Below, in pieces: positions 2,624 through 52,113 of a DNA stretch of 58,864 nucleotides. Within the stretch, counting starts at the first letter, position 1; each line of letters starts with the position of its first letter. A program made the position numbers and the translations under genes. The stretch comes from Bordetella petrii (GTDB lineage Bacteria > Pseudomonadota > Gammaproteobacteria > Burkholderiales > Burkholderiaceae_B): positions 1 to 58,864 of the forward strand of contig WMBV01000034.1 of assembly GCA_017745595.1 (NCBI GenBank). The letters run 5' to 3'. A model generated the notes under the pieces. It saw only the letters and a program-made list of their open reading frames with translations, was not told where the DNA came from and ran no database searches.

Positions 2624-4030
2624 ATGACCTCGACCCCTGCCCCTATCCGTACCCGCTTCGCGCCCTCGCCCACTGGTTTCCTGCACCTGGGCGGCGCGCG
2701 CACCGCGCTGTTTTCCTGGGCCTACGCGCGCCATCACCAGGGCGTGTTCGTGCTGCGCATCGAAGACACCGACCTGGAGCGCTCGACCCCCGAAGCGGTG
2801 CAGGCCATTCTGGACAGCATGGACTGGCTGGGCATGCAGCCCGACGAAGGGCCGTTCTATCAAATGCAGCGCATGGACCGCTACCGCGAAGTCATCGCGC
2901 AGATGCTGCGCGACGGCACCGCCTACCTTTGCTATAGCTCGCCCGAAGAAGTCGAGGCCATGCGCGAAGCGGCGCGCGCCCGGGGCCTGAAGCCGCGCTA
3001 CGACGGCACCTGGCGCCCCGAGCCCGGCAAGACGCTGCCGCCGGTGCCGGCCGGACGCCAGCCGGTGGTGCGCTTCAAGAACCCGCAAGACGGCGCCACG
3101 GGCTGGAACGACATGGTCAAGGGCCCCATCAGTTTCGACAACACCGAGCTCGACGACCTGATCATCGCCCGCCCCGACGGCACCCCCACCTACAACTTCT
3201 GCGTGGTGGTCGACGACTGGGACATGGGCATCACCCACGTGCTGCGCGGCGACGACCACGTCAACAATACGCCGCGCCAGATCAATATCCTGCGCGCGCT
3301 GGGCGCCACCCTGCCCGAATACGGCCACGTGCCGATGATTCTGGGGCCCGACGGCGAAAAGCTGTCCAAGCGCCACGGCGCGGTCAATGTCATGGACTAC
3401 GACGCGCAAGGCTACCTGCCCGAAGCCATGGTGAACTACCTGGCGCGGCTGGGCTGGAGCCACGGCGACGACGAACTGTTCACGCGCGAACAGCTGGTGC
3501 AATGGTTCGACACCCGGCATCTGTCGAAGTCGGCGTCGCAATGGGACCCGAAGAAGCTGAACTGGGTCAACGCCCACTACATCAAGCAGATGGACAACGC
3601 CGAACTGGCCGCGCGCGTGGCGCCGCGCATCGAAAAGCGCGGCGGCAATCCGGCGGCGGTGGACCTGGCCGCGGCCATGGGCTTGCTGAAAGACCGCGCC
3701 GAAACGCTGGAACAACTGGCCGACGCGGCACTGCTGTTCTGCAAGCCGTTCCAGCCGGCCGCCGCCGAATTGGCCGAACAGCACCTGACGCCGGCCGCGC
3801 GCGAGGCGCTGGCCGATTTCGCGCAACGCGCGGCAGGCACCGACTGGACCCGCGAGGCGATTTCCGCCCTGATCAAGGCCGTGCTGGCCGAACGCGGCCT
3901 GAAAATGCCGCAACTGGCCATTCCGCTGCGCGTGGCCGTGGTGGGCCAGACCCAGACGCCGGCGGTCGACGCCGTGCTGGCCCTGATCGGTAAAGAGGCG
4001 GTATTGCAGCGGCTGGGGGGCGGTGTCTGA
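2624..4030 (+). CDS. gltX: glutamate--tRNA ligase
   Basis: Glutamyl-tRNA synthetase, which charges tRNA-Glu in the cytoplasm. The 468-residue length is normal for the family. The HIGH-type motif reads HLGG (within [14 protein letters not shown], residues 15-28) and the KMSKS-type motif reads KLSKRHG near residue 245; the class I signature RIEDTD follows the first motif. The start at 2624 gives the usual N-terminus just ahead of TRFAPSPTG. Oddly, the last codons GGT-GTC-TGA lie inside a copy of the dispersed GGTGTCTGACACC palindrome, so the stop codon is supplied by the repeat. The convergent MFS gene follows after the repeat. Confidence 0.97.
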
Positions 4031-4104
4031 CACCCTGCAGACACCTGACGATGTGACGAGGACGTGGTCAAGGTGTCCGACTCCCGAAGGGTGTCGGACA
4101 CCGC
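4021..4104. repeat. Dispersed palindromic repeat, element A (between convergent gltX and MFS gene)
   Basis: There is one degenerate unit at 4022-4047 and one full unit at 4071-4102 of the family AGGTGTCTGACTCCC...GGGTGTCAGACACC. The full unit has GTCCGAC paired with GTCGGAC, a compensatory change relative to the family consensus. It sits between two convergent genes and contains the gltX stop codon. It may act as a bidirectional terminator or be a REP-like element; no T-tract follows the stems. Confidence 0.85.
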
Positions 4105-4118
4105 GGCGAGCACCCCTG

Positions 4119-5309
4119 CTACGCCGCCATCGCCCGCAGCCGGCAGCGCAGGGCCCAGGCGAAGCTGCCGCCCAGCAAGGGCAGCAATACCGCGGCCGCG
4201 CCGAACAGCGCCGCGGCGCCGGCCACGTCGACCACCAGCCCGGCCAGCGCCACCCCCACCGCCTGGCCCATGAACAGGCAGGACGCGAACCAGGCAACCG
4301 CGGTGCCGCGCGCGCCGGGCACCATTTGCGTGGCGTGGGTTTGCAGCGTGGCGTGCAGCAGGTAATAGCCGAAACCGGCCAGCATGCTGGCCGCCAGCCC
4401 CCAGGCCCAGACCGGGCCCAGCAGATAAGCCAGAAAGGCCGCGCACAGCACCAGCCCGCCCGCGGCGGCCAGGCCGCGCTCGCCCAGGCGCCGCAGCACG
4501 GGCCCCGCCACCAGGGTGTACAGCAACCCGCCCAGCGCATACACCGCCACCACGGCCCCCGCCGCGGTCAGCGACAGGCCGAAGCGCGCATGCAGGTAGG
4601 CCGGCACGAAGGCCAATGCGCCGAAGACCAGCAGGCCTTCCACGAAAACCGTGGCCAGCACGATGCGCGCCCAGGGCACGCTGAGCACCGTGCGCACCTG
4701 GGCGGCGAAACCCTGGCGCGGCGCGGCCTCGGCCGCCGGCCGGGCGGCCTGCCGGCCCACTTCGCGCCACAGCAGCGCGCCCACGATCAGATAGCCGACC
4801 ACCAGCGCGCCGAACGCCCAGCGCCAGCCGACCGTATCGGTGAACCAGCCGCCGGCCAGCTGCCCCGCGGCCATGCCCAGGATCGTGCCGGTGAGAAAGC
4901 GCGCCAGCGTGGCCTGGCGCTGCTCATAGGGAACGTTGTCGCCGATCCAGGCCATCGACAGCGGCACGATGCCGGCCCCGGCCGCGCCGGACAGGGCGCG
5001 GCACACCACCAGCATGTCCAGCGACGAGGCCAGCACCGCGCCGGCGCTGCCGATCGCGCACGCGAAGGTCGCCACCGTCACCACGCGGAATTTGCCATAG
5101 CGGTCGCCCACCGGCCCGAAGAACATCTGCAGCAGCCCGTAGGCGACCGCGAACGCGGTCACGGTGGCCGCGGCCTGCCCGGTGGTGGTGCCGAAATCGG
5201 CCGCCAGCCGCGGCAGCATGGGATCGCAGATGCGGAAGGCGGTGGCGCTGACGAAAGCCGCCAGCGCCAGCAAGGCGATCGCGCGGCCGTGGGAACTGGC
5301 GGGCGGCAT
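4119..5309 (-). CDS. MFS transporter
   Basis: Major facilitator superfamily permease of 396 residues with about twelve hydrophobic segments. Motif A (GPVGDRYGKFR) lies between helices 2 and 3, near residues 65-75, and a drug/H+ antiporter style N-terminus is visible (LAAFVSATAFRICDPMLPRLA). The length fits the DHA1 group of exporters. It is 10 bp downstream of a lipoprotein gene on the same strand, so the two are probably co-transcribed. Substrate unknown; efflux of a small molecule is the family expectation. It ends against a dispersed repeat that separates it from gltX. Confidence 0.88.
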   Translation of the reverse strand: MPPASSHGRAIALLALAAFVSATAFRICDPMLPRLAADFGTTTGQAAATVTAFAVAYGLLQMFFGPVGDRYGKFRVVTVATFACAIGSAGAVLASSLDMLVVCRALSGAAGAGIVPLSMAWIGDNVPYEQRQATLARFLTGTILGMAAGQLAGGWFTDTVGWRWAFGALVVGYLIVGALLWREVGRQAARPAAEAAPRQGFAAQVRTVLSVPWARIVLATVFVEGLLVFGALAFVPAYLHARFGLSLTAAGAVVAVYALGGLLYTLVAGPVLRRLGERGLAAAGGLVLCAAFLAYLLGPVWAWGLAASMLAGFGYYLLHATLQTHATQMVPGARGTAVAWFASCLFMGQAVGVALAGLVVDVAGAAALFGAAAVLLPLLGGSFAWALRCRLRAMAA

Positions 5310-5319
5310 CGGGCTGCCG

Positions 5320-5832
5320 TCAGTAAGACAGGTGGTAGCCCGGCGGCATGCGGCGCGCCGTGATCGCCTGGCCGCCCGAACGCAGCTCGCGCAGGCTCAG
5401 GCGGGCGGACTCGACCTTTTCGATGCGGTAGCGGTTCTGGTAGATGGGATCGGCGGCATCGACGGGTTCGCCATTGGAGCGGGTCGTCTGCAGGGTGAGC
5501 ACGCCATCGGCCTGTTGCCAGCAGCCCGCTTCGCGCAGGCCGGGCCGCACGCGCTTGCCGATCTTGAGCTGGGTCTCGTATGACATGGTGCCGTCGGCGG
5601 ACAGCACGATCAGCGCGCGGAAGTCGCCCGCCACGCCCCGCGGGCGGGTGTTCGATTGCCAGGTGCCGACCAGGCGGCTGCCGGGCTCGGCGGGCGTGCA
5701 GGCCACCGGGGGCGGCGCGGCGGCGGGGGCGGCGGGCGCCGGAGCCTGCCCGGTCTTGCGGGCCGCGCAACCGGCCAGGATCAATGCGGCGCCCACGGCG
5801 CCGATACGGTGCAACCACAACACACTTTTCAT
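5320..5832 (-). CDS. Putative lipoprotein
   Basis: A 170-residue protein with a lipoprotein signal peptide: a short basic N-terminus, a hydrophobic run and the lipobox LAGC at residues 19-22, followed by a Pro/Ala-rich linker. The mature part has a lipocalin/META-like start (GSRLVGTWQSN) and predicted beta-rich sequence (GTMSYETQLKIG, GVLTLQTT), but I do not recognise a named family. The gene directly precedes the MFS gene (10 bp), so an envelope role linked to that exporter is possible but inferred. Confidence 0.75.
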   Translation of the reverse strand: MKSVLWLHRIGAVGAALILAGCAARKTGQAPAPAAPAAAPPPVACTPAEPGSRLVGTWQSNTRPRGVAGDFRALIVLSADGTMSYETQLKIGKRVRPGLREAGCWQQADGVLTLQTTRSNGEPVDAADPIYQNRYRIEKVESARLSLRELRSGGQAITARRMPPGYHLSY

Positions 5833-5988
5833 GACGTCCTCGAAACCACGCGCGTCGCCGGACCGGATGAGCCGAGTCCGACACGCGCAGGTGGGACTCT
5901 AATGACGCCGCCCCCGCGATGCAATGACACCAGCTTGCAGATGGTGTGTAAGCGCAACAGTGGAGGCGAAGCCGGCCGCGGGTTTTGC

Positions 5989-6155
5989 AGGTGTCTGGCC
6001 TCCCGGAGAGGGTCGGACACCTGGCCACACGCCTATGCAGGTGTCTGACTCCCGAAGGGTGTCAGACACCGGAAGATCGTTTGCCCACTACGGTGTCAGG
6101 CACCCTGCGGGAGCCTGACACCTGACTCCTGACACACCTGAAGCCTGACACCAGG
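5989..6155. repeat. Dispersed palindromic repeat, element B (three units)
   Basis: This lies in the 342-bp stretch between the lipoprotein and Lrp genes. Units are at 5989-6022 (TCTGG/TCGGAC variant), 6039-6070 (consensus, CCCGAAGGG loop) and 6092-6123 (TCAGGC paired with GCCTGA, a compensatory change), followed by fragments to 6155. It lies just downstream of the Lrp gene stop codon. The rest of the gap (5833-5988) holds the presumed lipoprotein promoter; no further gene is seen. Confidence 0.85.
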
Positions 6156-6174
6156 CCGGCTGGCCAGTTGGCCA

Positions 6175-6642
6175 TTACGCCGCGTCGAGCGGCAGGCGCA
6201 CTTCGTGCTTGATCTCGCGCAGCGCGACGATGGTGCGGGTCTGGCGGATGCCGGGCAGGTTGAACAGGAAGCGGTGCAGGAACCGGTCGTACGCCTCGGG
6301 GCTTTCGACCAGGATCTTCAGCAGGAAGTCGGAATCGCCCGTGACCGCGTAGCACTCGAGTATCTCGGGCGCGTCGCGCACCGAGCGTTCGAAATTTTCG
6401 ACCGTGCTGGCCGAATGCCGCTCCAGGCTGATCTGCGCGAACATGCAGCCCTGCAATCCGACCTTGGCGCGATCGACCTGCGCGCTGTAGCCCGTGATGA
6501 CGCCCGCCGCTTCGAGCGCCTTGACGCGTCGCCACACCGGCGCGGCCGACAAGCCTACCTGCTCGGACAACTGCTGCGCCGAGGCGCGGCCGTCGGCCTG
6601 CAGGGCGCGCAGGATGCCGATGTCGGTTTTGTCCATATCCAC
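6175..6642 (-). CDS. Lrp/AsnC family transcriptional regulator
   Basis: A 155-residue regulator with an N-terminal winged helix-turn-helix (LDKTDIGILRAL-type start, then QLSEQVGLSAAPVWRRVKALEAAGVI at about residues 20-50) and a C-terminal RAM/AsnC ligand-binding domain (ECYAVTGDSDFLLKI). Members of this family sense amino acids and act as dimers or octamers. It is divergent from the indolepyruvate ferredoxin oxidoreductase gene, with a palindrome GAAATG-TT-CATTTC in between, so local control of that gene in response to an aromatic amino acid is a reasonable inference. Confidence 0.93.
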   Translation of the reverse strand: MDMDKTDIGILRALQADGRASAQQLSEQVGLSAAPVWRRVKALEAAGVITGYSAQVDRAKVGLQGCMFAQISLERHSASTVENFERSVRDAPEILECYAVTGDSDFLLKILVESPEAYDRFLHRFLFNLPGIRQTRTIVALREIKHEVRLPLDAA

Positions 6643-6660
6643 CCCATTTTTTGCCGAAAC

Positions 6661-6674
6661 GAAATGTTCATTTC
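6661..6674. promoter_or_regulatory. Putative Lrp/AsnC operator palindrome
   Basis: GAAATG-TT-CATTTC, a perfect 6-bp inverted repeat with a 2-bp centre. It is followed by the AT-rich stretch CAAATTATAG in an otherwise GC-rich intergenic region. It lies 18 bp upstream of the Lrp-gene start and about 90 bp upstream of the oxidoreductase start. This position suits autoregulation and control of the divergent gene. Binding is inferred. Confidence 0.55.
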
Positions 6675-6761
6675 AAATTATAGGGATTACACGATCCAAT
6701 AACGCAATAAATCGCTGGCCTCGCGCTCCTATCATGACTAGAACGAACAGGAGCATCCATC

Positions 6762-9700
6762 ATGGACGGGACCCCGGCGGCCGAACCGGCCTTGGATCTG
6801 GATTACCAATTGCAGGACAACCTGACCCGCACGCGGGGCCGCGTGTTCCTGACCGGCACGCAGGCGCTGGTGCGGCTGCTGCTGGCGCAGCGGCGGCTGG
6901 ACCGCGAACGCGGCCTGAATACCGCCGGTTTCGTGTCGGGCTATCGCGGCTCGCCGCTGGGCGGCGTGGACATGGCGCTGTGGAAGGCCCAGGCGCAGCT
7001 CGACGCCCACCAGATCACCTTCGTGCCCGGCATCAACGAAGACATGGCCGCCACCGCGATCATGGGCACGCAGCAGGCGGGCGTGCGCGACGACCGCCAG
7101 GTCGATGGCGTGTTCGCGCTGTGGTACGGCAAGGGGCCCGGGGTGGACCGGGCCGGCGATGCGCTGCATCATGGCAACGCGGCCGGCGCCTCGCGCCACG
7201 GCGGCGTGCTGGTGGTGGTGGGCGACGACCACACGGCGGTGTCCTCGTCGATTCCGCATGCCAGCGAAGCCTCGCTGATCGGCTGGCAGATGCCCGTGGT
7301 GCATCCCGCCTCGGTCGACGAATACGAGACCTTCGCGCTGTGGGGCTGGGCGCTGTCGCGCTATAGCGGCACGTGGGTGGCGTTCAAGGCCGTTTCCGAA
7401 ACCGTCGAAAGCGGCCAGGCCTATCTGCCGGCGCCGGCCGCCCGCTACGACATGCCGGCCGATCCCGCCCTGCCGCCCGGCGCCCTGGAATACACCGCGC
7501 GCGACTTCCTGTCGCCGGCGGTCGAACTGCGCATGCAAAAGCGCCTGCAGGCCGTGCGCGCCTTCGCGCGGCGCCATTCGATCGACCGGCTGGTCTGCGC
7601 CGCGCCGCGCGCCGCCGTGGGGCTGGTGACGGTGGGCAAGGCGCACCTGGACACCCTGGAAGCCCTGGCCCGGCTGGGCATCGACCCGCACGCCGCCGAC
7701 ACGCCGGTGCGCATCTACAAGCCCGGCCTGACGTGGCCGCTGGATGCCGGGCGCCTGCACGATTTCGCGCGCGGCCTGTCGCACATTCTGGTGATCGAAG
7801 AAAAGGGCGCGGTGGTTGAAAGCCAGATCAAGGACCTGCTGTACAACCAGCCGCACCGGCCCACCGTGGCCGGCAAGACCGGGCTGGACGGCGCGCCGCT
7901 GGTGCCGTCGGCCGGACAGTTGCGGCCCTCGCTGCTGGCCGCGCCGCTGGCGGCCTGGCTGGCGCGCTGCGCCGGCCTGCGCGGCGCCGTCGACCCGGCC
8001 GCCTTCGCCTGCCCCGCGCCGCTGTCCAACGATGCCGACGGCATGCGCCGCCGGCCGTACTTCTGTTCGGGCTGCCCGCACAACAGCTCGACCAAAGTGC
8101 CCGAGGGCAGCCAGGCGCTGGCCGGCGTGGGCTGCCACTACATGGCCGCCTGGATGGACCGCGACACCGGCGGCCTGACCCAGATGGGCGGCGAAGGCGC
8201 CGACTGGATCGGCCTGGCGCGCTATATAAAAATGCCGCACGTGTTCCAGAACATGGGCGAAGGCACGTACTACCATTCGGGCTATCTGGCGATCCGGCAG
8301 GCGGTCGCGGCGGGCGCCCACATCACCTACAAGATACTGTTCAACGACGCGGTCGCCATGACGGGCGGCCAGCCGGTCGACGGGCCGATCTCGGTACCGC
8401 AGATCTGCCAGCAGCTGCGCGGCGAGAACGTGGCGCGCATCGTGGTCACCACCGACGAGCCCCAGAAATACCAGAGCGTCGAGCTGCCGGCCGGCGTTAC
8501 CGTGCATCACCGGCGCGAGCTCGATGCCCTGCAGCGCGAACTGCGCGACACCGCCGGCGTGACCGTGCTGATCCACGACCAGACCTGCGCCGCCGAAAAA
8601 CGGCGGCGCCGCAAAAAGCAGCAATTTCCCGATCCGCCGCGCCGCCTGCTGATCAACAGCGCGGTGTGCGAAGGCTGCGGCGATTGCGGCACGCAATCGA
8701 ACTGCCTGTCGATCGTGCCCCTGGAAACGCCGTATGGCCGCAAGCGCGCCATCGACCAGTCCAGCTGCAATAAAGACTATTCGTGCGCCGACGGGTTTTG
8801 CCCCAGCTTCGTGTCGGTCATGGGCGGCCGGTTGCGCAAGCAGGCCGCGCCCGCCAGCGGCGCGCCGGCCTGGCGGCGGCACCTAAATGCCCTGCCGCTG
8901 CCCGCCGTCCAGGCGCCCGAACAGCCGTATCGCATGCTGGTGGCGGGCATGGGCGGCACCGGCGTCATCACCATCGGCGCCATCGTCTCGATGGCGGCGC
9001 ACTTGCAAGGCCTGTCGGCGTCGGTGCTGGACCTGACCGGCCTGGCGCAGAAAGGCGGCACGGTGGTCAGCCACATCCGCCTGGCCCCGGCGCAGGCGCC
9101 CGACGGCCCGGTGCGGCTCGACTGGCAGCAGGCCGACGCCGCCATACTGTGCGACCCGGTGGCGGCCGTGGCGCCGGACTCTCTGGGGGCGCTGCGGCGC
9201 GGCCACACGCAAGTGACGGTCAACACCTACGTGGCGCCGATATCGGAATTCACCCGCGACCCCGACGCGGCGTTGCGGCCCGAGGCCCTACTGGCCAAGA
9301 TCCGCCACGCCGCCGGCGAATCCCGCACCGCCGCGCTGGATGCGCACCACGCGGCGCAGGCCCTGTTCGGCGACAGCATCCTGTCGAACATGTTCATGCT
9401 GGGCCATGCCTGGCAACGCGGCGGCGTGCCGCTGTCGCACGCCGCGCTGGCGCGCGCCATCGAGCTGAATGGCGTGGCGGTGCAGGCCAACCGCGACGCC
9501 TTCGAGGCCGGGCGCCTGGCCGCCCACCAGCCGCAGGCATTGGAAGAGGCCCTGCGCCCGGCAGCGCAGGTGGTGCAGTTGCAGGTGCCGGAATCGTTCG
9601 AACGCGCCGTGGCGCGCCGCGTGCGCGACCTGACGGCCTACCAGAACGCCGCCTATGCGCGCCAATACCAACAACTGGTCGAACGCGTGGCGCGGCGCGA

Positions 9701-10268: not shown

Positions 10269-10295
10269 ATCCGCCGCTGATAGCAACCACTACGC

Positions 10296-10320: not shown

Positions 10321-10384
10321 TTACACTTAGACGCAATTAAGTGGGAACTCGGAGCATAGTTCTTCTTGTTCCCCTCCCCCCTCA

Positions 10385-10400: not shown

Positions 10401-10415
10401 CATCCGAGGGGTGTT

Positions 10416-15047: not shown

Positions 15048-15695
15048 ATGGCAACAGCCAAGAAAGCCGCCAAGAAAGCGGTGAAGAAACCCGCCGCCAA
15101 GAAGGCCGCGGCCAAGAAAGCCCCGGCCAAGAAGGCCGTGAAGAAAGTCGCCGTGAAGAAGGTTGCGGCCAAGAAACCCGCCGTGAAGAAAACGGCGGCC
15201 AAGAAACCGGCAGTGAAGAAGACCGCCGCCAAGAAAACCGTCAAGAAAGCCGCCGCCAAAAAGGCAGTGAAGAAGACGGTTGCCAAGAAGGCAGTCAAGA
15301 AGGTCGCAGCCAAAAAGACCGTGAAAAAAGCGGTCAAGAAGGCACCGGCCAAGAAGGTCGCCAAGAAAGCGGTAGCCAAGAAGGCTGTTGCCAAAAAGGC
15401 CGTCGCCAAGAAAGCCGTAGCCAAGAAGGCCCCGGCCAAGAAGGCTGCCGCCAAGAAGGCACCCGCCAAGAAAGCGGCCAAGGCCCCTGCCAAGAAGGCC
15501 GCCAAGAAAGCGGTAGCCAAGAAGGCGCCGGCGAAGAAGGCTGCTGCCAAGAAGCCTGCCGCGAAAAAGCCTGCCGCCAAGAAGGCTGCTCCCAAGAAGC
15601 CCGCCACGCCGCCTTCCACGGCAGCTGCCCCGGGTGCGAAGACCGCGCTGAATCCGGCCGCCTCGTGGCCGTTCCCGACCGGTGGCCGTCCGTAA
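15048..15695 (+). CDS. Histone H1-like Lys/Ala-rich DNA-binding protein
   Basis: A 215-residue, strongly basic nucleoid protein made almost entirely of short repeats such as [10 protein letters not shown] and APAKK over residues 1-185. It resembles the Bordetella H1 homologue (BpH1) and eukaryotic H1 tails. The last 30 residues are not repetitive and are Pro-rich, ending in [16 protein letters not shown] precedes the ATG (15036-15041). The repeats are encoded by near-identical GCC-AAG-AAG codon blocks, so length variation by slippage is expected. A strong terminator follows. Role in DNA compaction is inferred from composition and family. Confidence 0.93.
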
Positions 15696-16404: not shown

Positions 16405-16468
16405 CTGGGGTTATCGGGCGGGGTGGCTGGGGGGAGTTTTTGCCCCGTCAGTTCTTGCCCCGCTATCC

Positions 16469-16752
16469 AGGTGCCTGACTCCCCGCGAGGGGTGTCGGAC
16501 ACCGATCCTGGAATCTCAGTTCTTGCCCCGTCCCGCGGTGTCCGGTCGGGCGGGAAGCCGCGCACGTACTTCGGGCTCGGGCGCATGCAGGCGCCCTCGG
16601 CCTGCTACGCAGGCTGCCCCGCCGCCCAACGCGCGGCTTCCCGCCCGACCGGACACCGCGGGACTGCGATCGATGACTTCCCGACCGCCGCACAGATCCT
16701 GGAATCTCTGCACACATCGGTGTCAGGCACCCTGGCGGGAGCCTGACACCTG
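16469..16752. repeat. Dispersed palindromic repeat, element C, split by a nested element
   Basis: Outer units are at 16469-16503 and 16719-16751 (GTCAGGC paired with GCCTGAC). They are 215 bp apart instead of the 20-32 bp seen at other sites. Between them lie 14-bp direct repeats GATCCTGGAATCTC (16504-16517 and 16695-16708) that flank a 34-bp inverted repeat. Removing one direct repeat and the enclosed DNA restores a 23-bp spacer, which suggests insertion into an existing element. The 419-bp gap 16405-16823 between convergent genes contains no gene. Confidence 0.75.
16530..16664. repeat. Perfect 34-bp inverted repeat with structured loop
   Basis: Arms 16530-16563 and 16631-16664 are exact reverse complements. 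The 67-bp loop has its own hairpins (GCCTGC-TAC-GCAGGC and GGGCGC...GCGCCC). A 15-bp direct repeat TCAGTTCTTGCCCCG occurs at 16448-16462 and again at 16516-16530, abutting the left arm. No ORF of note; it looks like a small MITE-like or REP-like element. Confidence 0.8.
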
Positions 16753-16823
16753 TTCACGACGTTTCAATGAAACTGGTGTCGCTAGATCGGGGAAGCGCGG
16801 TAGCGCTTCGGGGGTGGGCCAGA

Positions 16824-18468: not shown

Positions 18469-19686
18469 TCAGGGAAAGAACTTGTCGAGTTGGTAGCCGT
18501 TGACCTGCGCGCCGGCCACTTCGATAGGCACCTCGATGTTGAGTTCGGCACCGGCCTCGAACGGCCCGGCCGCCTGGCCGGGCGGCAAGTAGTCTTCGGG
18601 CCGCAGCACCTTGCGCACCACCACGGTATCGGACAGGTCGGTGAGATCGAGCCGCAGCGCGGGCCAGTGCTGCGGCTTGTCGTAGCGGTTGCGCAGCGAC
18701 ACGCGCAGCACCAGGCGGCTGCGGTCGTCTTGCTCGGGCGCGCCGGCCTGGCCGCGCGGCGGCTGCAGCGATGAAGAGGTAATGAAAATGCGCTCGATGC
18801 GGCGCGCATAGCCGACCTGGCAGCCCAGCGGCTGGCAGACGCTGGTGAGCAGCGGCCGCAGCGACGGCACGGCAATGGCGATGGCCGACCGGTACACGAA
18901 CACCAATTGCAGCGCCAGCAGCAGCAGGCCCAGCACGCAGCCGTAGCCCCACAGGCTGCGCAGCAGGTAGCGGCGGTTCTGCCGGTCGGTATCGAGGAAC
19001 TCGGGCGGCGTGCGGCCGACGTCGGTAGCGCCGTAATAGCGGGTGCGCGCTTCGCCCTGCACCACGGGCTCAGCCGCGGCCCGGGGCTCATCGTCGTAAA
19101 GCTCGGGGGCGTCGTCGCGCAGCTCGGGCGCGTCGTGGCGCAGGTCGGGCTGGTCGTTGCGAAATTCGGGTTCGTCGTCGCGCAGTTCGGGCTCGTCGTC
19201 ATGCAGCCCGGGCTCGTCGTCGGCATCGGGCCGGCCCACATAGGGGTCATGGCGCCGGATGTCGGTGCGGCCGCGCAACACGGCCGGCGGCGCGGCCGGC
19301 GCGGCGCCCAGGCGGGGCTCGGGCCGCGCCGACAACGGCGGCGCGGGTACCGCGGACAGCACGGGCGGCGCGCTGGGCGGCGCGGACGCGGCAGGGGCAG
19401 CGGGTAGAACCGGAGCAGGCGGAACCGGAGCGGGAGGAACTGCCGGCGGCACCGGCGCGGCGGGGGTAGCGGGCGCCGGCGCGGGAACGGCAACAGGAGC
19501 CGGCGCCGCGGGCATGGCCGATGGAGGCGCCGGGGCGGCTTGGGGGATCTGCGCCACCAGGCAGGCCCGGCCGTCGAATACGGTGTCGCAGGCGCCGCAA
19601 CGCACCAGGCCGTTGCGCACTCGCAGCTGGTCGGGCACCACCCTGAACGCGGTGCCGCACTGCGGGCAGCGGGTCGTCATGGCCAT
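18469..19686 (-). CDS. Zinc-ribbon and DUF3426 domain protein
   Basis: A 405-residue membrane protein. An N-terminal MJ0042-type zinc ribbon (CPQCGTAF ... CGACDTVF, residues 6-30) is followed by a long Pro/Ala-rich linker, an acidic repeat of seven-residue units (DEPELRD-like), one membrane helix (GCVLGLLLLALQLVFVY) and a C-terminal DUF3426 domain. I chose the ATG at 19686 because the zinc ribbon starts right after it; an upstream in-frame ATG overlaps prmA. The gene sits between prmA and the PfkB kinase gene. Function unknown; the layout suggests a bitopic envelope protein with a cytoplasmic metal-binding end. Confidence 0.87.
   Translation of the reverse strand: MAMTTRCPQCGTAFRVVPDQLRVRNGLVRCGACDTVFDGRACLVAQIPQAAPAPPSAMPAAPAPVAVPAPAPATPAAPVPPAVPPAPVPPAPVLPAAPAASAPPSAPPVLSAVPAPPLSARPEPRLGAAPAAPPAVLRGRTDIRRHDPYVGRPDADDEPGLHDDEPELRDDEPEFRNDQPDLRHDAPELRDDAPELYDDEPRAAAEPVVQGEARTRYYGATDVGRTPPEFLDTDRQNRRYLLRSLWGYGCVLGLLLLALQLVFVYRSAIAIAVPSLRPLLTSVCQPLGCQVGYARRIERIFITSSSLQPPRGQAGAPEQDDRSRLVLRVSLRNRYDKPQHWPALRLDLTDLSDTVVVRKVLRPEDYLPPGQAAGPFEAGAELNIEVPIEVAGAQVNGYQLDKFFP
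19083..19222. repeat. 21-bp minisatellite coding for acidic heptapeptide repeats
   Basis: Inside the DUF3426 gene, about six to seven imperfect 21-bp units encode DEPGLHD, DEPELRD, DEPEFRN, DQPDLRH, DAPELRD, DAPELYD and DEPRAAA. The 21-bp period keeps frame, so copy-number change would only alter linker length. Confidence 0.85.
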
Positions 19687-27723: not shown

Positions 27724-27793
27724 TCCGGGGACAGGCCGGCTGCTGGGTCTCGTGCTTAGGGCGTCGGGGCGGGGTGGCGCGCGCGCCTTGGCC

Positions 27794-27914
27794 AGGTGTC
27801 TGACTCCCGCAGGGTGTCAGACACCGTGAAGGGGCGGGCATCGCTTTGCCATGCTTCGGTGTCTGACACCCTGCGGGAGTCAGACACCTGGTTGACCTGG
27901 TTGCCAGACACCTG
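27794..27914. repeat. Dispersed palindromic repeat, element D (perfect 32-bp inverted pair)
   Basis: Units 27794-27825 and 27858-27889 are exact reverse complements over 32 bp, including the loop CCCGCAGGG, with a 32-bp spacer ending TGCCATGCTTC. A further fragment (CCAGACACCTGG) is at 27904-27915. The element lies downstream of the RNase gene in a 277-bp gap that otherwise holds only the promoter for the TonB-like gene. Confidence 0.9.
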
Positions 27915-28000
27915 GTTGCCGTCGCCCTCGGCACCGGCCTGCCGGGCCATCGCCGGGGCCGGTCTCGCACCGAGGGGCGCAAGACGTCTAAAATCCCCCC

Positions 28001-28900
28001 GTGCAACGTTCTGCTGATTCTTCTTCGACGCCGGGCCGGTTGTTATTTTGGTTGAGCGCGCCCGCCCAGCACTACTTGCGGATCGGACTGGCGATCTCGC
28101 TGCTGCTGCACGCCGGCGCGCTGGCGTGGCGGTTCAGCGCGCCGGCGCCGGCGCGGTCGACCCAGGCGCCGCTGGAAATCGTGCTGGTCAACGCCCGCAC
28201 CGAGTCGGCGCCCGCCCAGGCGCAGGTGGTGGCGCAGAACCAGGTCGACGGCGGCGGCAATGCCGAACAAGGGGTGGCCGCCACGCCCCTGCCGCGCACC
28301 GGCCAGTCCGCCGAAACCATCGTGCTGCAGGCCATGCGCAAGCGCCAGGCGCAGCTCGAAGCCGAACAGATGCGGCTGTTGAGCCAATTGCAGGCGCAGG
28401 CCAAGGCCGGCACCGAACGGCAGCCGGTGTACCCCTGGCCCGACGCCACGGCGCCCGGCGAAGACGTGCACGACCAGCCCGGCCTGGTGCAGAACGCCCA
28501 GATCGCCACCCTGGCCGCCCGCGTCCAGTCGTACAACGGCCAGCCCCGCAAGGCCTATGTGGCCCCCTCGGCGCAGGCGTCGCGCTATGCCGCCTATCTG
28601 GATGCCTGGCGCACGCGCATCGAGGCCGTGGGCACGCAGCACTACCCGGACGAAGCGCGCGGCCGCATCTACGGTTCGCTGCAGATCACGGTATCGGTGC
28701 GCGCCGACGGCAGCGTGGCCAACGTCGAAATCGACCAGCCGTCCGAACACGCCGTCCTGAACCAGGCGGCGCGCCGCATCGTGCAGATGGCCGCGCCCTT
28801 CCCGCCCTTTCCTGCGCAGATTGCACGCGAAGCCGATATGCTGGTCATTACCCGCACCTGGCACTTCGTCAACGACACTCTGGAAACCCAAGCCCCATGA
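28001..28900 (+). CDS. TonB-family energy-transducer-like protein
   Basis: A 299-residue protein with an N-terminal cytoplasmic stretch, one membrane anchor (LRIGLAISLLLHAGALAW, about residues 26-43), a long Gln/Ala-rich periplasmic segment and a C-terminal TonB-like domain (YGSLQITVSVRADGSVANVEIDQPS ... RTWHF). Start is GTG at 28001. No exbB/exbD neighbours are present, so it may be an accessory TonB-like protein rather than the main transducer. It overlaps aroE by ATGA and is the first gene of a tonB-like/aroE/mtgA cluster. Confidence 0.85.
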   Translation: MQRSADSSSTPGRLLFWLSAPAQHYLRIGLAISLLLHAGALAWRFSAPAPARSTQAPLEIVLVNARTESAPAQAQVVAQNQVDGGGNAEQGVAATPLPRTGQSAETIVLQAMRKRQAQLEAEQMRLLSQLQAQAKAGTERQPVYPWPDATAPGEDVHDQPGLVQNAQIATLAARVQSYNGQPRKAYVAPSAQASRYAAYLDAWRTRIEAVGTQHYPDEARGRIYGSLQITVSVRADGSVANVEIDQPSEHAVLNQAARRIVQMAAPFPPFPAQIAREADMLVITRTWHFVNDTLETQAP

Positions 28901-37874: not shown

Positions 37875-37876
37875 TG

Positions 37877-37959
37877 GGATCCACCCCCGAAGCGCTGCGC
37901 GCACCCGCCTCAAGGGGGCGACGCTGGCGGACCGGCAAAGCCGGCTCCGCGGCGTCCCC
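37877..37959. repeat. Second intergenic repeat family, hairpin-forming
   Basis: A GC-rich block beginning GGATCCACCCCCGAAGC with a stem-loop from 37914 to 37959 (GGGG...ACGC...GCGGA-CCGGC-AAA-GCCGG-TCCGC...GCGTCCCC). From memory similar blocks recur in Bordetella/Achromobacter and Comamonadaceae genomes, though I cannot verify it here. It lies right after the dctM stop and could serve as a terminator. Confidence 0.6.
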
Positions 37960-37984
37960 GATCGAGTTGCATCTATTTCTTGCC

Positions 37985-38076
37985 AGGTGTCTGGCTCCCG
38001 CCAGGGTGCCAGACACCGCTGTGTGCAGAGGATTTCGTCACACCTCGGTGTCTGACACCTTCGGAGTCAGACACCT
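37985..38076. repeat. Dispersed palindromic repeat, element E
   Basis: Units 37985-38017 (TCTGGC paired with GCCAGA) and 38047-38076 (consensus stem with a shortened loop). Unlike elements D and H, the two halves have different loops. It sits between the TRAP cluster and the crotonase gene in a 268-bp gap that also holds the second repeat family. Confidence 0.85.
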
Positions 38077-38142
38077 GCAGTATCCCGGCCCATACGCTTA
38101 AAGAAGTGCCATGGGACACTAACCCTGCGACAGGAGCCCCGC

Positions 38143-38902: not shown

Positions 38903-38918
38903 GGGGTCAGACACCTGG
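38903..38918. repeat. Remnant of the dispersed palindromic repeat (element F)
   Basis: GGGGTCAGACACCTGG is a half unit of the family, between the convergent crotonase and plsC genes. It makes a small stem CCAGG...CCTGG. The short duplicated GACCTGGC next to it suggests local rearrangement. Confidence 0.55.
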
Positions 38919-43932: not shown

Positions 43933-44044
43933 AGGTGTCTGACTCCCGTGGTCAGGTGTCAGGCTCCGCAGGTGCCTGACACCGCTGTATAAGCGGCGCC
44001 CTGCCCGCTTCGGTGTCTGACACCCTACGGGAGTCAGACACCTG
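43933..44044. repeat. Dispersed palindromic repeat, element G (mosaic)
   Basis: The right unit 44012-44043 has loop CCCTACGGG. The left side starts with the first 17 bases of the matching inverted copy (43933-43949) and then switches to a different unit with stem GTCAGGC/GCCTGAC (43954-43983). This mosaic suggests recombination between subtypes. It lies between convergent hemL and the Rid-family gene. Confidence 0.85.
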
Positions 44045-44061
44045 ACCATACTTGACCGTGC

Positions 44062-44466: not shown

Positions 44467-44470
44467 GGAA

Positions 44471-44893
44471 TCATCCTGTCATTAAAAACGCCTGCATGCG
44501 CTGGCGCAGATCATCGGGAATGGCGGTCGAGCGCAACGTGCGCAGGTCCACCGTCACAATCGTCAATGCCGCCTTCAGGCGGGTACCGCCGTCCGGGCCC
44601 ATGAACTGCACGTCGGCGGCGAACGACGCGCCGCCGATGCGCCGCACGGCGAGTTCCTGGCGCAGCTTTTCGTGCCAGCGGCTGGGCGCGGTGAAATCGC
44701 ACTGCACCGATGCCAGCGGCGTGCCGATCTGGCGCTCGACGTGCAGGGCGTGAAACGGCAGGCCCATGCCCTTGTCGAACCACTCTTCGACAAAATCGTT
44801 GATCATCTCGAAATAGCGCGGGTAGAACACGATGCCGGCCGGATCGCAGTGCCGGAAGCGCACCTCGACCTCGCTGACGAAGGGTGTGGCCAT
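44471..44893 (-). CDS. 4-hydroxybenzoyl-CoA thioesterase-family acyl-CoA thioesterase
   Basis: A 140-residue hotdog-fold thioesterase. VRFRHCDPAGIVFYPRYFEMINDFVEEWF (residues 9-37) carries the catalytic Asp of the 4HBT family. Start at 44893 (MATPFVSEVE) is chosen because a longer frame overlaps the ligase. Probably releases CoA from dead-end aryl- or alicyclic-CoA esters, a common housekeeping role in CoA-dependent aromatic pathways. It lies 10 bp after the ligase gene. Confidence 0.92.
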   Translation of the reverse strand: MATPFVSEVEVRFRHCDPAGIVFYPRYFEMINDFVEEWFDKGMGLPFHALHVERQIGTPLASVQCDFTAPSRWHEKLRQELAVRRIGGASFAADVQFMGPDGGTRLKAALTIVTVDLRTLRSTAIPDDLRQRMQAFLMTG

Positions 44894-44903
44894 GAATGTT
44901 TCC

Positions 44904-46544: not shown

Positions 46545-46592
46545 GAATTTTCCCTTGGCAATGCGATAAGCGGCTGTCTGGCGGACACGGCA

Positions 46593-47762
46593 CTAGTCTT
46601 TCAACAGCTCTCGGGCAATGATCAATTTCTGGACTTCGGTAGCGCCTTCGTAAATGCGCAGCGCGCGGATCTCGCGATAAAGTTTTTCCACGGGCATGCC
46701 CGCCACGACGCCCGCGCCGCCGAACATCTGCAGGGCCCGGTCGATGACCGACTGCGCCGATTCCGTGGCGGCCATCTTGGCCATGGCCGCCTCGCGCGTG
46801 GTGCGCACGCCGCGCACGTCGCGCAGCCAGGCGGCGCGGTAGGTCAGCAGCGCGGCCGCGTCGATGGCGGTGGCCATATCGCCCAGCGCCGCCTGGGTCA
46901 GCTGCAGGTCGGCCAGGGCCTGGCCGAACATGCGGCGCCCGCGGGCGCGCGTCACGGCCTCGTCCAGCGCGCGCCGGGCAAAACCCAGGGCCGCCGCCGC
47001 CACCGATGCCCGGAAGATATCCAGCGTCATCATGGCCAGCTTGAACCCCTGCCCCGGTTCGCCCAGCCGGTGGCTGGCGGGAACGCGGCAACCGTCGAAC
47101 GACAGCGTGGCCAGCGGGTGCGGCGCCATCACCTCGATGCGTTCGGCGATGTCGAAGCCCGGCGTGCCGGCCTCGACCACGAACGCGCTGATGCCGCGCG
47201 CGCCCGGCGCTTCGCCGGTGCGGGCGAATACGCAGTAGAAATCGGCGATGCCGCCGTTCGAGATCCAGGTCTTGGCGCCGTCGAGCACGTAGTGGTCGCC
47301 GTCGGCGCGCGCGCTGCACGCCAGGGCCGCGACATCGGACCCCGCGTCGGGTTCGGACAGCGCGAAAGCGGCGATGGCCTGGCCGCTGGCCACGCGCGGC
47401 AGGTATTGCCGGCGCAGCGCCTCGGAGCCCATCAGCGCAATGGCCCCGCTGCCCAGGCCCTGCATGGCCAGCGCGAAATCGGCCAGCCCGTCGTGGCGCG
47501 CCAGGGTCTCGCGCAAGATGCAGACCATGCGCGAGTCGATCTGCGGCAGCGCCCCGCCCCAGGCGCCATCGGGGCCGGCGGGCACGCAATAGCGCAGCCA
47601 GCCGGCCTGGCCCAGCGCCGCCACCAGCTTGCGGCAGGCCGCGTCGGTGTCGTGATGGTCGATGTCGGCCAGCGCGTCCACGCACCAGGCCTCGAGCTCG
47701 CCCGCCAGGGCCCGATGGTGTTCATCGAAAAACGGCCAGTCCAGCCATGTAGTGTCTGCCAT
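46593..47762 (-). CDS. Acyl-CoA dehydrogenase
   Basis: A 389-residue FAD enzyme of the acyl-CoA dehydrogenase family that makes an alpha,beta double bond in a CoA ester. [15 protein letters not shown] and [11 protein letters not shown] are the flavin-binding signatures; the catalytic Glu is in [21 protein letters not shown] near the C-terminus. It lies 45 bp downstream of the crotonase gene and 48 bp before the ligase gene in one transcription unit. Likely acts in the beta-oxidation part of the ring-degradation pathway. Confidence 0.95.
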
Positions 47763-47807
47763 GTCAGTGTCTCGCCGCGCGCAGCGCTTGGGGGGTGGGT
47801 CTCATGG

Positions 47808-48665
47808 TCAATCTCCTTCGAATACCGGTTTGCGCTTGGCCACGAAGGCCTCGTAGGCGCGCCGGAAATCGCGCGTCTGCATGCAGATGGCCTGCGCTTC
47901 GGCCTCGGCCTCGATGGCCTCGTCGACGCCCATGTTCCATTCCTGGTGCAGCAGCTTCTTGGTGATGCCATGCGCGAAGGTGGGGCCGGCCGCCAATTGC
48001 GCCGCCAGCGACTGGGCCGCTTCCAGCAGCCCGGCGCCCTGGTGCAGGCTGTTGAAGAACCCCCATTGCGCGCCCTCATCGGCGCTCATGGCGCGGCCCG
48101 TATACAGCAACTCCGACGCCCGGCCCTGCCCGATCACGCGCGGCAGCAGGGTGCAGGCCCCCATGTCGGCGCCGGCCAGGCCCACCCGGGTGAACAGGAA
48201 GGCAGTGCGCGCGGCCGGGGTGCCCAGCCTGAGGTCGGAGGCCAGCGCCATCATGGCCCCGGCGCCGGCGCACACGCCATCGACCGCGGCCACGATGGGC
48301 TGCGGGCAGGCGCGCATGGCCTTGACCAGGTCGCCCGTCATGCGCGTGAAGTCCAGCAATTCGGGCATGCTCATGCGCGTGAGCGGGCCGATGATCTCAT
48401 GCACGTCGCCGCCCGAGCAGAAATTGCCGCCCGCGCCGGTAATGACCACGGTCTTGATGTCGGTGGCATACACCAGGCCGCGGAACAGGTCGCGCAGTTC
48501 GGCGTACGAATCGAAGGTCAGCGGATTCTTGCGTTCGGGCCGGTTCAGCGTAATGGTGGCCACCTTGCCGTCGGCCGACACTTGCCACAGGAAAGTGCGG
48601 GCGGCGTAATCGGTGTAAGGGCGCCGGTGGTGCTTCATGGTGTGCTCGGGTGCAACGCTGTTCAT
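47808..48665 (-). CDS. Enoyl-CoA hydratase-family protein lacking both hydratase glutamates
   Basis: A 285-residue crotonase-fold protein. The oxyanion loop is [13 protein letters not shown] (about residues 80-92) and the second loop is [20 protein letters not shown]. Aligned by eye with rat mitochondrial hydratase, Glu144 is Met and Glu164 is Arg, while an Asp appears in LAGADMGAC. Hydratase chemistry is therefore doubtful; a ring-opening hydrolase or isomerase would fit both the fold and the operon. Start at 48665 ([13 protein letters not shown]) has GGAG upstream; MKHHRRP is an alternative. Confidence 0.9.
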
Positions 48666-48708
48666 GGGGTCTCCTGGGTGGCCTGGGGCCTGGGAATACG
48701 GAAAAGCC

Positions 48709-49500
48709 CTAGCCGGGCATGACTTCGCCGCCATCGATGGCGATGGCCTGGCCGTTGATGGATGCGCAGGCCGGCAAGGCCAGCCAGGCGACGGCCTCGG
48801 CCACTTCGCCGGGCTGCACCAGCCGGCCTTGCGGATTGCGCGCGGCCAGTTCGGCGCGCGCCTGCCCGGCCGTGCGGCCGGTTTTCCGCACGATGTTGTC
48901 GACGGCGTCGCGCACGATATCGGTCTCGGTAAAGCCGGGGCAGACCGCGTTGACGGTGACGCCCTTGCGCGCCACTTCCAGCGCCAGCGCCCGGGTCAGG
49001 CCCACCACGCCGTGCTTGGCCGCGCAGTAGGCGCTGACATACGGATAGCCGATCAGCCCGGCGGTGCTGGCCACATTGATGACGCGCCCCCAGCCGGCCG
49101 CCAGCATGCCCGGCAGCGCGGCCTGGATGCAATGGAAAGTGCCGGTAAGGTTGACGGCCAGCATCGCCTGCCACTGCGCCGCGTCGGTGCGCTCGAAGCG
49201 CTGGCTGGTCGCCTGGCCGGCATTGTTGACCAGGATGTCGATGGCGCCGGCGTCTTGCGCGGCCTGCTCGAACGCGGCGCGCACCGAGGCCTCGTCGGCG
49301 ATGTCGGCCGCCACGGCGCGCACCGCCCCCTGCCGGCCAAGCGACGCCACGGCCGCGTCCAGCGCGGCGCGGTCGCGCCCCAGCAGGGTCAGGGTGGCGC
49401 CGCGCTGCTGCAGGGCCTGCGCGCAGGCCAGCCCGATGCCGCGGGCCCCGCCCGTGACCAGGGCATGGCGGCCTTCCAGGCCGCGTGCGGAAGCGTTCAT
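48709..49500 (-). CDS. SDR-family 3-hydroxyacyl-CoA dehydrogenase-like oxidoreductase
   Basis: A 263-residue short-chain dehydrogenase. [15 protein letters not shown] (residues 13-27) is the NAD(P)-binding Gly motif, NNAGQ the structural motif, and the catalytic triad is Ser in VASTAGLIG with YxxxK in [10 protein letters not shown] (about residue 157). The C-terminal DGGEVMPG is typical of the SDR family. It starts within the stop of the fusion enzyme (ATGA), so the two are translationally coupled. Likely oxidises a hydroxy- or reduces an oxo-acyl-CoA intermediate. Confidence 0.93.
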
Positions 49501-51848
49501 TTGGCGTCCTGTTGCGCCAGCGTGGCGGCGCGTTCGAAGTTGGTTTCCAGCTGCCGCTTGCCCGCCGCGTATTGCGGCGGCCAGGCCGTGTCGCAATACC
49601 CCACGCGGGCCGCTTCGCGCAGCGTCCATGAGGCATCGGCCAGGTGCGGGCGCGCCAGCGCGCACAGGTCGGCGCGGCCCGAGGCGATGATGCCGTTGGC
49701 GTGGTCGGCCTCGAAAATGGCGCCCACCGCGATGGTGGCGATGCCGGCCTCGTTGCGCACCCGGTCGGCAAAGGGCGTCTGGTACATGCGGCCATACACC
49801 GGACGCTGCTCGGGGCTGACCTGCCCCGACGAGCAGTCGATCATGTCGGCGCCCGCGGCCTTGAAATGGCGCGCGATTTCGACCGCGTCGTCGGCCGTGA
49901 TACCGCCCTCGACCCAGTCGTGCGCCGAGATGCGCACCGACATGGGCCGGTCTTGCGGCCAGGCCTCGCGCACCGCGCGGAACACTTCCAGCGGATAGCG
50001 CAGGCGGTTTTCCAGGCTGCCGCCATAGTCGTCGTCGCGCCGGTTCGTCAGCGGCGAGATGAAGCTGGACAGCAGATAGCCGTGGGCGCAGTGCAGTTCC
50101 AGCCAATCGAAGCCGGCCTGCGCCGCGCGCCGGGCCGCGGCCGCGAAGTCGTCGCGCACGCGGTCCATGTCGGCGCGGTCCATGGCGCGCGGCGTCTGGG
50201 AAATACCGGGCAGATAGGGCAAGGCCGAAGCCGACAGCAGCGGCCAGTTGCCCTCGGCCAGCGGGTGGTCCATTTGCTGCCAGCCCAGCTGGGTGGAGCC
50301 CTTGCGGCCCGCATGCCCGAGCTGCATGCCGATGCGCGCGTCGCTATGCGCGTGCACGAAATCGACGATGCGCGCGAAGGCCCGCGCCTGCTCGTCGTTC
50401 CACAAGCCCGGGCAGCCCGGGGTAATGCGCGCGTCGGGCGAAACGCAGGTCATTTCGACCATGACCAGGCCGGCGCCGCCCAGGGCGCGCGAGCCCAGGT
50501 GCACCAGGTGGAATTCGCCCGGCACCCCGTCCGCGCACGAATACATGGCCATCGGCGACACCACGATGCGGTTCTTCAGCTCGACGCCGCGCAAGCGGTA
50601 GGGGGTCAGCATGGGCAGCGGCGGGCGGGTGCCGGCGGCCCCGGGCTCGCCCGAACGCCCGGCCAGCCAGCGCTCGTAGCCTTCCAGCCAGGCCGGGTCG
50701 CGCACGCGCAGGTTTTCGTGCGAAATGCGCTGCGAACGGGTCAGCAGCGAATAGGCGAACTGTTCCGGATCGAGCCCGGCATAGCGCTGCACGTTCTCGA
50801 ACCATTCGGTGGAGTTGCGCGCGGCGTTCTGGATTTTCAGGACCTCGACGCTGCGCACGTCTTGATAATGCCGCAGGCCCGGTTCCAGTCCGCCCTCGGC
50901 GCCGCCCAGGCAGCGCGCCAGTTCGATGGCGTCTTCCAGCGCCAGCTTGGTGCCCGAGCCCACCGAAAAATGCGCGGTGTGCGCCGCATCGCCCATCAGC
51001 ACCACCGGCACGCGGCGCGGGCCGCGCGGCGTGTCCAGCGTGTTCCAGTGCACCCAGGTGTCGCAGATGACGCGCGGGAAGCGGATCCAGATGGCGGCGC
51101 CGCGCAGGTGCGAGGCGTTGCTGATGAGCTTGTGGCCGTCCAGCCAGGGCGCGAACAGTTTTTCGCAATAGGCGATGCCCTCTTCCTGGCTCAGGTCGCC
51201 GATGCCGGCGGCCTGCCAGGTTTCTTCGGGCGTTTCGACGATGAAGGTCGACAGGCCGTCCTGGAAGCGGTAGGCGTGGGCCTGGAACCAGCCGTGTTCG
51301 GTCTGCACGAAAGCGAAGGTGAAGGCATCGAACACCTTGGTGGTGCCCAGCCAGACGAAGCGGCAGCGCCGCGTGTCGATGTCTGGCTTGAAGGTGTCGG
51401 CATAGCGGGTGCGCGCCTGGCTGTTGATGCCGTCGGACGCGATGACCAGGTCGGCGTCGTACTGCAGCGCCACGGCCTGGTCGTCTTGCACGAAGGTTTC
51501 GAACACCAGCTTCACGCCCACTTCTTCGCAGCGCGCCTGCAGGATGTTCAGCAGTTTCTTGCGGCCGATGCCGATGAAGCCATGGCCATGGGTGCGTACG
51601 CTGCGGCCCTTGAAATGGATGTCGATGTCGTCCCAGTGATTGAAGGCGTCGCCGATGGTCTGGGCCGATACCGGGTCGGCCTGGCGCAGGTTTTCCATGG
51701 TGGCGTCCGAAAACACCACCCCCCAGCCGAAAGTGTCGTACGGCCGGTTGCGCTCGATGACGGTGACTTCGTTGGCGGGGTCCCGCAGCTTCATCAGCAG
51801 GCCGAAGTACAGGCCGGCGGGGCCACCGCCCAGGCAGACGATTTTCAT
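49497..51848 (-). CDS. Bifunctional aryl-CoA monooxygenase/reductase (2-aminobenzoyl-CoA monooxygenase/reductase or salicylyl-CoA 5-hydroxylase type)
   Basis: A 783-residue fusion. Residues 1 to about 390 are an FAD aromatic hydroxylase ([13 protein letters not shown] near the N-terminus, [27 protein letters not shown]). Residues about 412-783 are an Old Yellow Enzyme of the YqjM class ([38 protein letters not shown] with both His, [10 protein letters not shown]). The YqjM-type redox Cys (SPMCMY) is Ala here. This architecture belongs to 2-aminobenzoyl-CoA monooxygenase/reductase, which hydroxylates C5 and reduces the ring, and to proteins annotated as salicylyl-CoA 5-hydroxylase. No gentisate dioxygenase is near and beta-oxidation genes are, which favours the former. 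First gene of its operon. Confidence 0.9.
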
Positions 51849-51904
51849 TGCGCGACAGGCTCCGTGAAACCGGAGCGGGCCGATGGGTTCCGCCCGCTCC
51901 AATT

Positions 51905-51920
51905 AGTTTAGGTTTCAACT
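51905..51920 (-). promoter_or_regulatory. Operator-like palindrome upstream of the aryl-CoA operon
   Basis: AGTTTAGGTTTCAACT, an imperfect palindrome of the form AGTTTA-N4-TAAACT (one mismatch). It lies 57 bp upstream of the fusion-enzyme start. The same 12-base core AGTTTAGGTTT(C/A)A recurs at 57295-57310. It fits a MarR-type operator; the MarR gene at 58271 is the likely partner. The rest of the 291-bp gap is filled by repeat element H. Confidence 0.7.
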
Positions 51921-51980
51921 ATATACCTCAAGCATGGGCCGCGCAAGAAATGCGGGTTTATACCGAGAGACGGTGATGCC

Positions 51981-52113
51981 AGGTGTCTGACTCCCGCAGG
52001 GTGTGATAGCAAGGTGTCTGACTCCCGCGCAGCGGGTGTCAGACACCTATGCAGTCGGCAGGGTCTGGCCATGCTTCGGTGTCTGACACCCGCTGCGCGG
52101 GAGTCAGACACCT
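51981..52113. repeat. Dispersed palindromic repeat, element H (perfect 36-bp inverted pair)
   Basis: Units 52012-52047 and 52078-52113 are exact reverse complements over 36 bp including an expanded loop CCCGCGCAGCGGG, with a 30-bp spacer ending GCCATGCTTC (shared with element D). A truncated unit of a different loop type (CCCGCAGGG) precedes it at 51981-52004. It lies downstream of the thioredoxin gene and upstream of the aryl-CoA operon promoter. Confidence 0.9.

Follow-up and report, generated by a model that had tools for sequence, protein, structure and literature searches.

The window analysed here is a stretch of 58,864 nucleotides of Bordetella petrii DNA (G000:C27:1-58864), one contig of a 6.10-Mb genome, G000, that is assembled in 68 contigs. 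Its genes were called with a codon-usage script rather than taken from an annotation, and their starts are rough. Between these genes lie seven sites and one half-unit remnant of a palindromic unit, all present as a preliminary description of this DNA had listed them. With units designated F or R according to orientation, they are the following:

4022..4102 (site 1), convergent gap between gltX and an MFS-transporter gene: shortened unit 4022-4045 and F unit 4072-4102 (TCCGAC/GTCGGA)
5990..6152 (site 2), co-directional gap downstream of an Lrp/AsnC gene: units 5990-6021, 6040-6070 and 6092-6122, and a degenerate half 6140-6152
16470..16750 (site 3), convergent gap 16405-16823: F unit 16470-16503 and R unit 16719-16750 on either side of an unrelated 34-nt inverted repeat
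27795..27912 (site 4), co-directional gap: REPIN of F unit 27795-27825 and R unit 27858-27888, and half-unit 27900-27912
37986..38075 (site 5), co-directional gap: F unit 37986-38017 (TCTGGC/GCCAGA) and R unit 38047-38075
38903..38915, convergent gap of 66 bp: half-unit remnant
43934..44042 (site 6), convergent gap: outer half-unit from 43934, complete TCAGGC/GCCTGA unit 43955-43983 and R unit 44012-44042
51982..52112 (site 7), co-directional gap: half-unit from 51982, and REPIN of F unit 52013-52047 and R unit 52078-52112 with a lengthened inner stem

In the main unit, cAGGTGTCTGACTCCCGCAGGGTGTCAGACACCg, a T.T mismatch separates an outer stem of 10 bp from a short inner stem (CCC/GGG) with a small loop; the second frequent type is GGTGTCAGGCTCCGCAGGTGCCTGACACC. 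The window contains 124 matches to GGTGTCTGACNCC with up to three mismatches, the highest count among 100 shuffles being 79, and an Rfam scan of the window gave no match reaching the gathering score. Head-to-head pairs of units form REPIN-like elements of about 90-100 bp with no gene inside. In an 859-kb sample of the genome, made up of the window and stretches of contigs C1, C4, C6, C11 and C36, 68 sites hold 128 units, which include 74 exact copies of the unit core, and 36 F-R pairs were counted, 24 of which have a gap of 28-30 bp; two inverted repeats around a short spacer are the arrangement of a REPIN or BIME. Folded as single-stranded DNA, two window elements each give one long hairpin (z -13 to -14.3), and a third gives z -8.4. 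At the feet of 116 oriented units, the last three outer positions are C in 68, C in 93 and A in 110, and the inner position is G in 104; neither a GTAG nor a CGTC tag was found at either foot of these units.

The 14-mer core, GGTGTCTGACTCCC, occurs exactly 543 times in the 6.10-Mb genome, against no occurrence of the reversed control, and scaling by cores extrapolates to roughly 940 units genome-wide. Of the 68 sampled sites, 67 lie between called genes, and the remaining one lies on C36 near the contig end, outside called genes. The units are short, palindromic, high-copy and intergenic, as canonical REPs are. The core was present in six of 151 genomes of the family, namely five of the seven genus members drawn and one other; outside the genus, it was met in one of 144 sampled family genomes, as a single copy. 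We regard the repeats as a lineage-specific, untagged, REP-like family.

The compensated stem variants named in the preliminary description recur in the window as TCTGAC/GTCAGA, TCAGGC/GCCTGA (6092, 16719 and 43955), TCTGGC/GCCAGA (37986) and TCCGAC/GTCGGA (4072), alongside incompletely compensated units such as those at 5990 and 16470. Watson-Crick pairing holds in 1243 of the 1280 arm cells of the 128 units, and 62 cells are changed on both arms, compared with 13.3 on average and at most 25 after the right arms were redealt 1000 times; the detection rule tolerates two mismatches per arm and so favours paired units, a bias that the redealing control retains. Of the cells in a hand-picked 40-unit alignment, 98.8% pair, and 32 are double-changed versus at most three for slid structures. 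The double changes are concentrated at stem pairs 7 (31 of 62) and 9 (29 of 62), most of them accounted for by the two main types. The other eight stem positions are nearly invariant, and the variable ones show several paired states (TA, AT and CG; AT and GC).

The compensatory excess, which had been taken to point to selection on the hairpin, is thus real, but it is no proof of selection on RNA: the same pattern could come from a transposase that reads hairpins in single-stranded DNA or from repair of palindromes by template switching. One alternative is that template switching or gene conversion within the palindrome accounts for the compensation, with no selection on the hairpin itself. This is consistent with the near-confinement of double changes to two positions and mostly two types, as well as with arms that may match exactly within one element (at site 4, the REPIN arms are 35 nt long and 100% complementary). 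It is nevertheless unlikely, as the eight other stem positions hardly vary and the several paired states at the two variable positions imply more than one conversion event.

A mobile REP/BIME-like unit was the other reading offered at the outset, with a unit-flanked RAYT as a feature to look for, and the search found one with units on both sides. The only Y1_Tnp protein encoded in the genome is a RAYT of 202 aa at G000:C36:41626-42231, outside the window. It carries HVH and YIELNP motifs, scores 40.9 bits against PF01797 and reaches 86.4 bits against the NCBIfam REP-associated tyrosine transposase model NF047646 (cut-off 80), a combination of HUH and Y...NP motifs, Y1_Tnp domain and REP_Tyr_transpos score by which a RAYT (TnpAREP) is recognised. 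Y1_Tnp is its sole Pfam match at E 0.1, with no C-terminal helix-turn-helix extension, and its nearest named relative is a protein of Bordetella sp. BOR01 (82% identical). Four units lie at the 3' end of the gene, a unit and a half-unit lie beyond its 5' end, and its stop codon falls within a unit. When aligned to 4er8, the protein keeps W among the five residues that contact the GTAG tag in E. coli TnpAREP (W94, Q95, E100, H101 and R104, as listed in the part of PMC6006769 consulted), the others being E, S, R and D.

Related RAYTs are accompanied by their own versions of the hairpin. All six RAYT loci seen in the genus Bordetella have units on both sides, with a separate version in each species: perfect AGGTGTCAGACACCC...GGGTGTCTGACACCT in genomosp. 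2 and mixed forms in genomosp. 7. The consensus units at the RAYTs of BOR01 and petrii MY10 have one stem position unpaired, which speaks against the REPIN-RAYT reading. So does the genus Achromobacter, where one of three RAYT loci has a longer-looped form and no such hairpin was found near the other two. Farther out in the family, G024 has GGGGTCAGACCCC by its RAYT, and the flanking hairpins of the more distant relatives L055 and L057 start with GGGGTCAG. The RAYTs of Bordetella and Achromobacter have 183-202 aa, without the C-terminal stretch of their relatives of 228-235 aa.

RAYT and abundant units agree in eight of nine genus genomes, a broken RAYT being scored as present. Both occur in G000, G141, G151, G152, G081 and G053, and both are lacking in G015 (no units) and G103 (two weak matches). 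The ninth genome, G123, has abundant units and no Y1_Tnp; its counterpart of the G000 RAYT locus contains two unit-like hairpins, and nothing there matches the RAYT. This weighs against the REPIN-RAYT reading, as does G053 (Bordetella genomosp. 7), whose RAYT has an in-frame TGA after codon 99 while 250 exact cores remain in the genome; its unit population may have outlived its enzyme. A further adverse point is that the RAYT locus is common to only three of the six RAYT-bearing genus genomes (G000, G141 and G053 share a flanking gene), with RAYT and flank on different contigs in G152 and G081.

Presence and absence of units also vary at orthologous places. In G152, no unit with up to four mismatches was found in any of the eight regions orthologous to occupied window regions, six of which are short gaps and two of which hold other long inserts. 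Two of five comparable window regions in G141 have no unit, as have two of four in G123, where one of the empty regions, the gltX gap, retains a degenerate half. The compared flanking gene ends are 82-95% identical, and the gaps are too diverged for exact insertion boundaries. Together with the single unit-flanked RAYT and the hundreds of copies, these unit-free regions lend good support to mobility. With high probability, the palindromes are an untagged REP-like family whose REPIN-like pairs are probably copied by the single RAYT of the genome, a Y1/HUH transposase, as association and presence and absence suggest.

The position of the units relative to genes is far from random in G000. Among the 67 intergenic sites of the 859-kb sample, 31 are convergent, 34 co-directional and two divergent, compared with 8.6, 38.5 and 19.9 expected from intergenic bases (p 2e-11 for the convergent excess, 0.27 for co-directional gaps and 5e-8 for the divergent deficit); without the window, the counts are 26, 30 and two. 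Units in co-directional gaps lie a median of 41.5 bp past the upstream stop versus 132 bp ahead of the next start (p 0.0008). In a sample that is 90.7% coding, just one of 128 units lies wholly within a called gene, near its end, and two sites overlap called starts. The window itself has six divergent intergenic regions of at least 40 bp by the new gene calls, none of them occupied, which agrees with the earlier remark that divergent promoter regions are free of units. Four of its eight occupied regions are co-directional (5833-6174, 27724-28051, 37875-38142 and 51849-52139), where the element thus also precedes the following gene.

The claim that every copy is downstream of a stop codon holds for most copies, which lie just past gene ends, but the stop of gltX (2624-4030) is supplied by the element itself, its TGA at 4028-4030 falling within the first palindrome; the protein ends in ...GGV in G000 versus ...AL in three relatives. 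In the sample, eight called genes terminate within an element, one at a TAA and seven at a TGA. According to the excerpt of PMC3733652 consulted, REPs prefer convergent and co-directional gene 3' ends and may supply stop codons, so the positional observation is expected of such elements.

Tolerance at gene ends alone, as first proposed, is too strong a formulation. The 3'-end bias is found in the G000 sample and in 400 kb of G141, where 11 sites are convergent, nine co-directional and none divergent out of 20 (p 4e-5 convergent, 0.02 divergent), but two of 67 sites in G000 are divergent and G123 shows no significant bias. In 400 kb of the latter (C1:1-400000), the 19 intergenic sites comprise five convergent, ten co-directional and four divergent ones, and three further sites, one a poor match, lie inside called genes. 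Divergent gaps and the vicinity of called starts in G123 hold units about as intergenic bases predict; several sites overlap called starts, which may be start miscalls. Either such miscalls or the loss of the RAYT may account for this distribution.

The gene-end position probably reflects that insertions are least harmful there. Alternatively, the bias could be set at insertion, with the transposase or the replication or transcription state targeting gene ends. Sites with unchanged arms are already biased relative to intergenic bases (convergent 9 of 34, p 0.034; divergent 2 of 34, p 0.001), and GGTGTCTGA provides the terminal TGA of five called genes, with two more ending at other TGAs of the element, which would suit targeting. 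We consider it improbable on account of G123, where there is no bias at all, and because the convergent share is higher in diverged sites (22 of 33) than in pristine ones (9 of 34; p 0.0014). Four other cuts between the two classes gave p 0.0006, 0.068, 0.078 and 0.13, and one cut without the window gave 0.0033; over five cuts (p 0.0006-0.13), the G000 data thus hint at an age gradient. The gradient is absent in G141 (p 0.65) and G123 (p 1).

Retention of the hairpins as RNA, whether as terminators or as mRNA 3'-end stabilisers shared by convergent genes, with mobility secondary, is very unlikely: the strong placement directly past stop codons, the stable RNA folds at three sites (z -12.6, -7.3 and -6.8) and the lower share of intrinsic-terminator-like sites in occupied than in empty convergent gaps (1 of 30 versus 8 of 47 in a simple scan, a weak difference) are offset by the similar shares in co-directional gaps (4 of 33 occupied, 20 of 274 empty), the orthologous G152 gaps that manage without units, the units of G123 that are unbiased to gene ends and the absence, as a rule, of T-runs after the hairpins. 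An intrinsic terminator, a GC hairpin followed by a T-run, was likewise rejected on the listed flanks and composition.

The copy number, the paired arms, the unit-flanked RAYT, the species-specific versions beside related RAYTs, the absence at orthologous places in a relative and the placement bias are observations; binding, cutting, copying and selective purging are inferred. A unit in single-stranded DNA would fold into a hairpin, or the entire element would form a single long one. The RAYT would bind the hairpin, cut at its foot, where CCA is conserved outside and G inside, and put a copy elsewhere in the genome. Copies landing in genes or promoters would mostly be lost, and those directly past stops would persist, chiefly between convergent genes. 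Most of the stem is invariant, as if its sequence were read, and two positions would mainly need pairing, so compensated variants gather there.

The system works like a REPIN-RAYT system and is closest to the little-studied TIR-associated RAYTs. With GTAG-tagged REPs and REPINs (BIMEs) and their RAYTs (PMC2817692, PMC3733652 and PMC3116915, each used in part), it shares hundreds of short intergenic hairpins, inverted pairs and one RAYT flanked by them, as well as a tendency to lie near gene 3' ends in convergent and co-directional gaps and the occasional supply of a stop codon (PMC3733652, in the excerpt consulted). Unlike these, the present family is untagged, with CCA at the outer foot and G at the inner foot, and it supplies TGA rather than TAG as a stop codon. 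Because the tag is missing and the G000 RAYT has replacements at four of the five residues with which E. coli TnpAREP contacts it, we do not file the units as canonical REPs.

TIRYTs, or TIRtrons, are described in the excerpt of PMC3733652 as RAYTs with non-REP flanking repeats, some of them self-complementary and in dimers. These and TnpAREP subclass 2.1 (PMC6006769, in part) resemble the present system in the non-REP repeats that flank the RAYT. The published flanking-repeat consensus, as given in the excerpt, is GGGG[AT][CG]A[CG]; the GGGGTCAG hairpins of L055 and L057 fit it, in contrast to the unit here, which starts with GGTGTC. The Bordetella and Achromobacter RAYTs differ from TIRYT and subclass 2.1 proteins, as excerpted, in having no C-terminal extension. 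For subclass 2.1, the part of PMC6006769 consulted reports no REP-like sequences near the gene, whereas clear hairpins flank the RAYT here; the tree made for this RAYT comprises the relatives found in this analysis. A possible but tentative scenario is that a TIR-type RAYT lost its C-terminal domain in the Bordetella/Achromobacter line, that its flanking repeats grew into a large untagged REPIN population recognised by a CCA/G foot in place of GTAG, and that hairpin and transposase co-diverged into species versions differing at two stem positions. If so, the REPIN way of life would have arisen a second time, independently.

Among repeats reported from the genus, the Beta-proteobacterial repeat element BRE (PMC3110155, in part) is, by description, likewise dispersed, about 90 bp long, present in Bordetella and mostly intergenic. 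According to the excerpt, it has 8-22 copies in four Bordetella genomes and also occurs in other Betaproteobacteria, whereas the unit core occurs in hundreds of copies almost confined to the genus. A second dispersed repeat in the window, GC-rich and with the core GACCGGCNAAGCCGGCTCCGCGGCGTC, lies at 37879-37965, directly before site 5. With up to two mismatches, GACCGGCNAAGCCGGCTCCGCGGCGTC has 31 copies in G000, 25 in G152, 20 in G123, ten in G151, three in G141 and one in G081, and none in G015, G103 and G053. By length and copy number, this repeat may be the BRE of PMC3110155, as excerpted, and by copy number it is a better candidate than the unit.

Untagged REP-like repeats in Bordetellae are mentioned in one sentence, with a citation, in the excerpt of PMC3733652. 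Among the best-ranked literature matches on RAYTs or REPINs in Bordetella and on TIRYTs, no description of this family was recognised, and the matches listed for core 10-mers are unrelated by title. Features that were not expected are the missing tag, a large population with a shortened RAYT, species-specific hairpins and the lack of placement bias in a RAYT-free relative. REP-RAYT systems are rare examples of transposon populations that persist for long in bacterial genomes, and REP families in the cited literature, as excerpted, mostly carry the GTAG tag contacted by the E. coli enzyme. A tag-free population with one cognate RAYT, set beside sister species whose RAYT is broken or absent, offers a natural test of the purpose of the tag, and the same setting allows tests of co-change between hairpin and enzyme and of whether gene-end bias stems from insertion or selection.

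Several other features of the window were observed. Inside site 3, at 16530-16664, the two 34-nt arms of a perfect inverted repeat enclose a middle of 67 nt. Looser matches to this middle occur in the sample at C4:108362, adjoining a REP site, and, fairly near such a site, at C11:215939 and 216184; the repeat is perhaps a further hairpin element moving with or near the units. Positions 1-144, where the contig begins, hold an inverted repeat with arms of 42 nt (95% complementary, 60 nt apart) that overlaps the start of reading frame 47-2500 and is possibly a contig-end assembly artefact. The reading frame 15048-15695 is rich in lysine and alanine, with short, AAG-rich repeats, and presumably resembles the histone H1-like proteins of Bordetella. 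Coding DNA at 19084-19230 contains a 21-nt tandem repeat in at least five copies.
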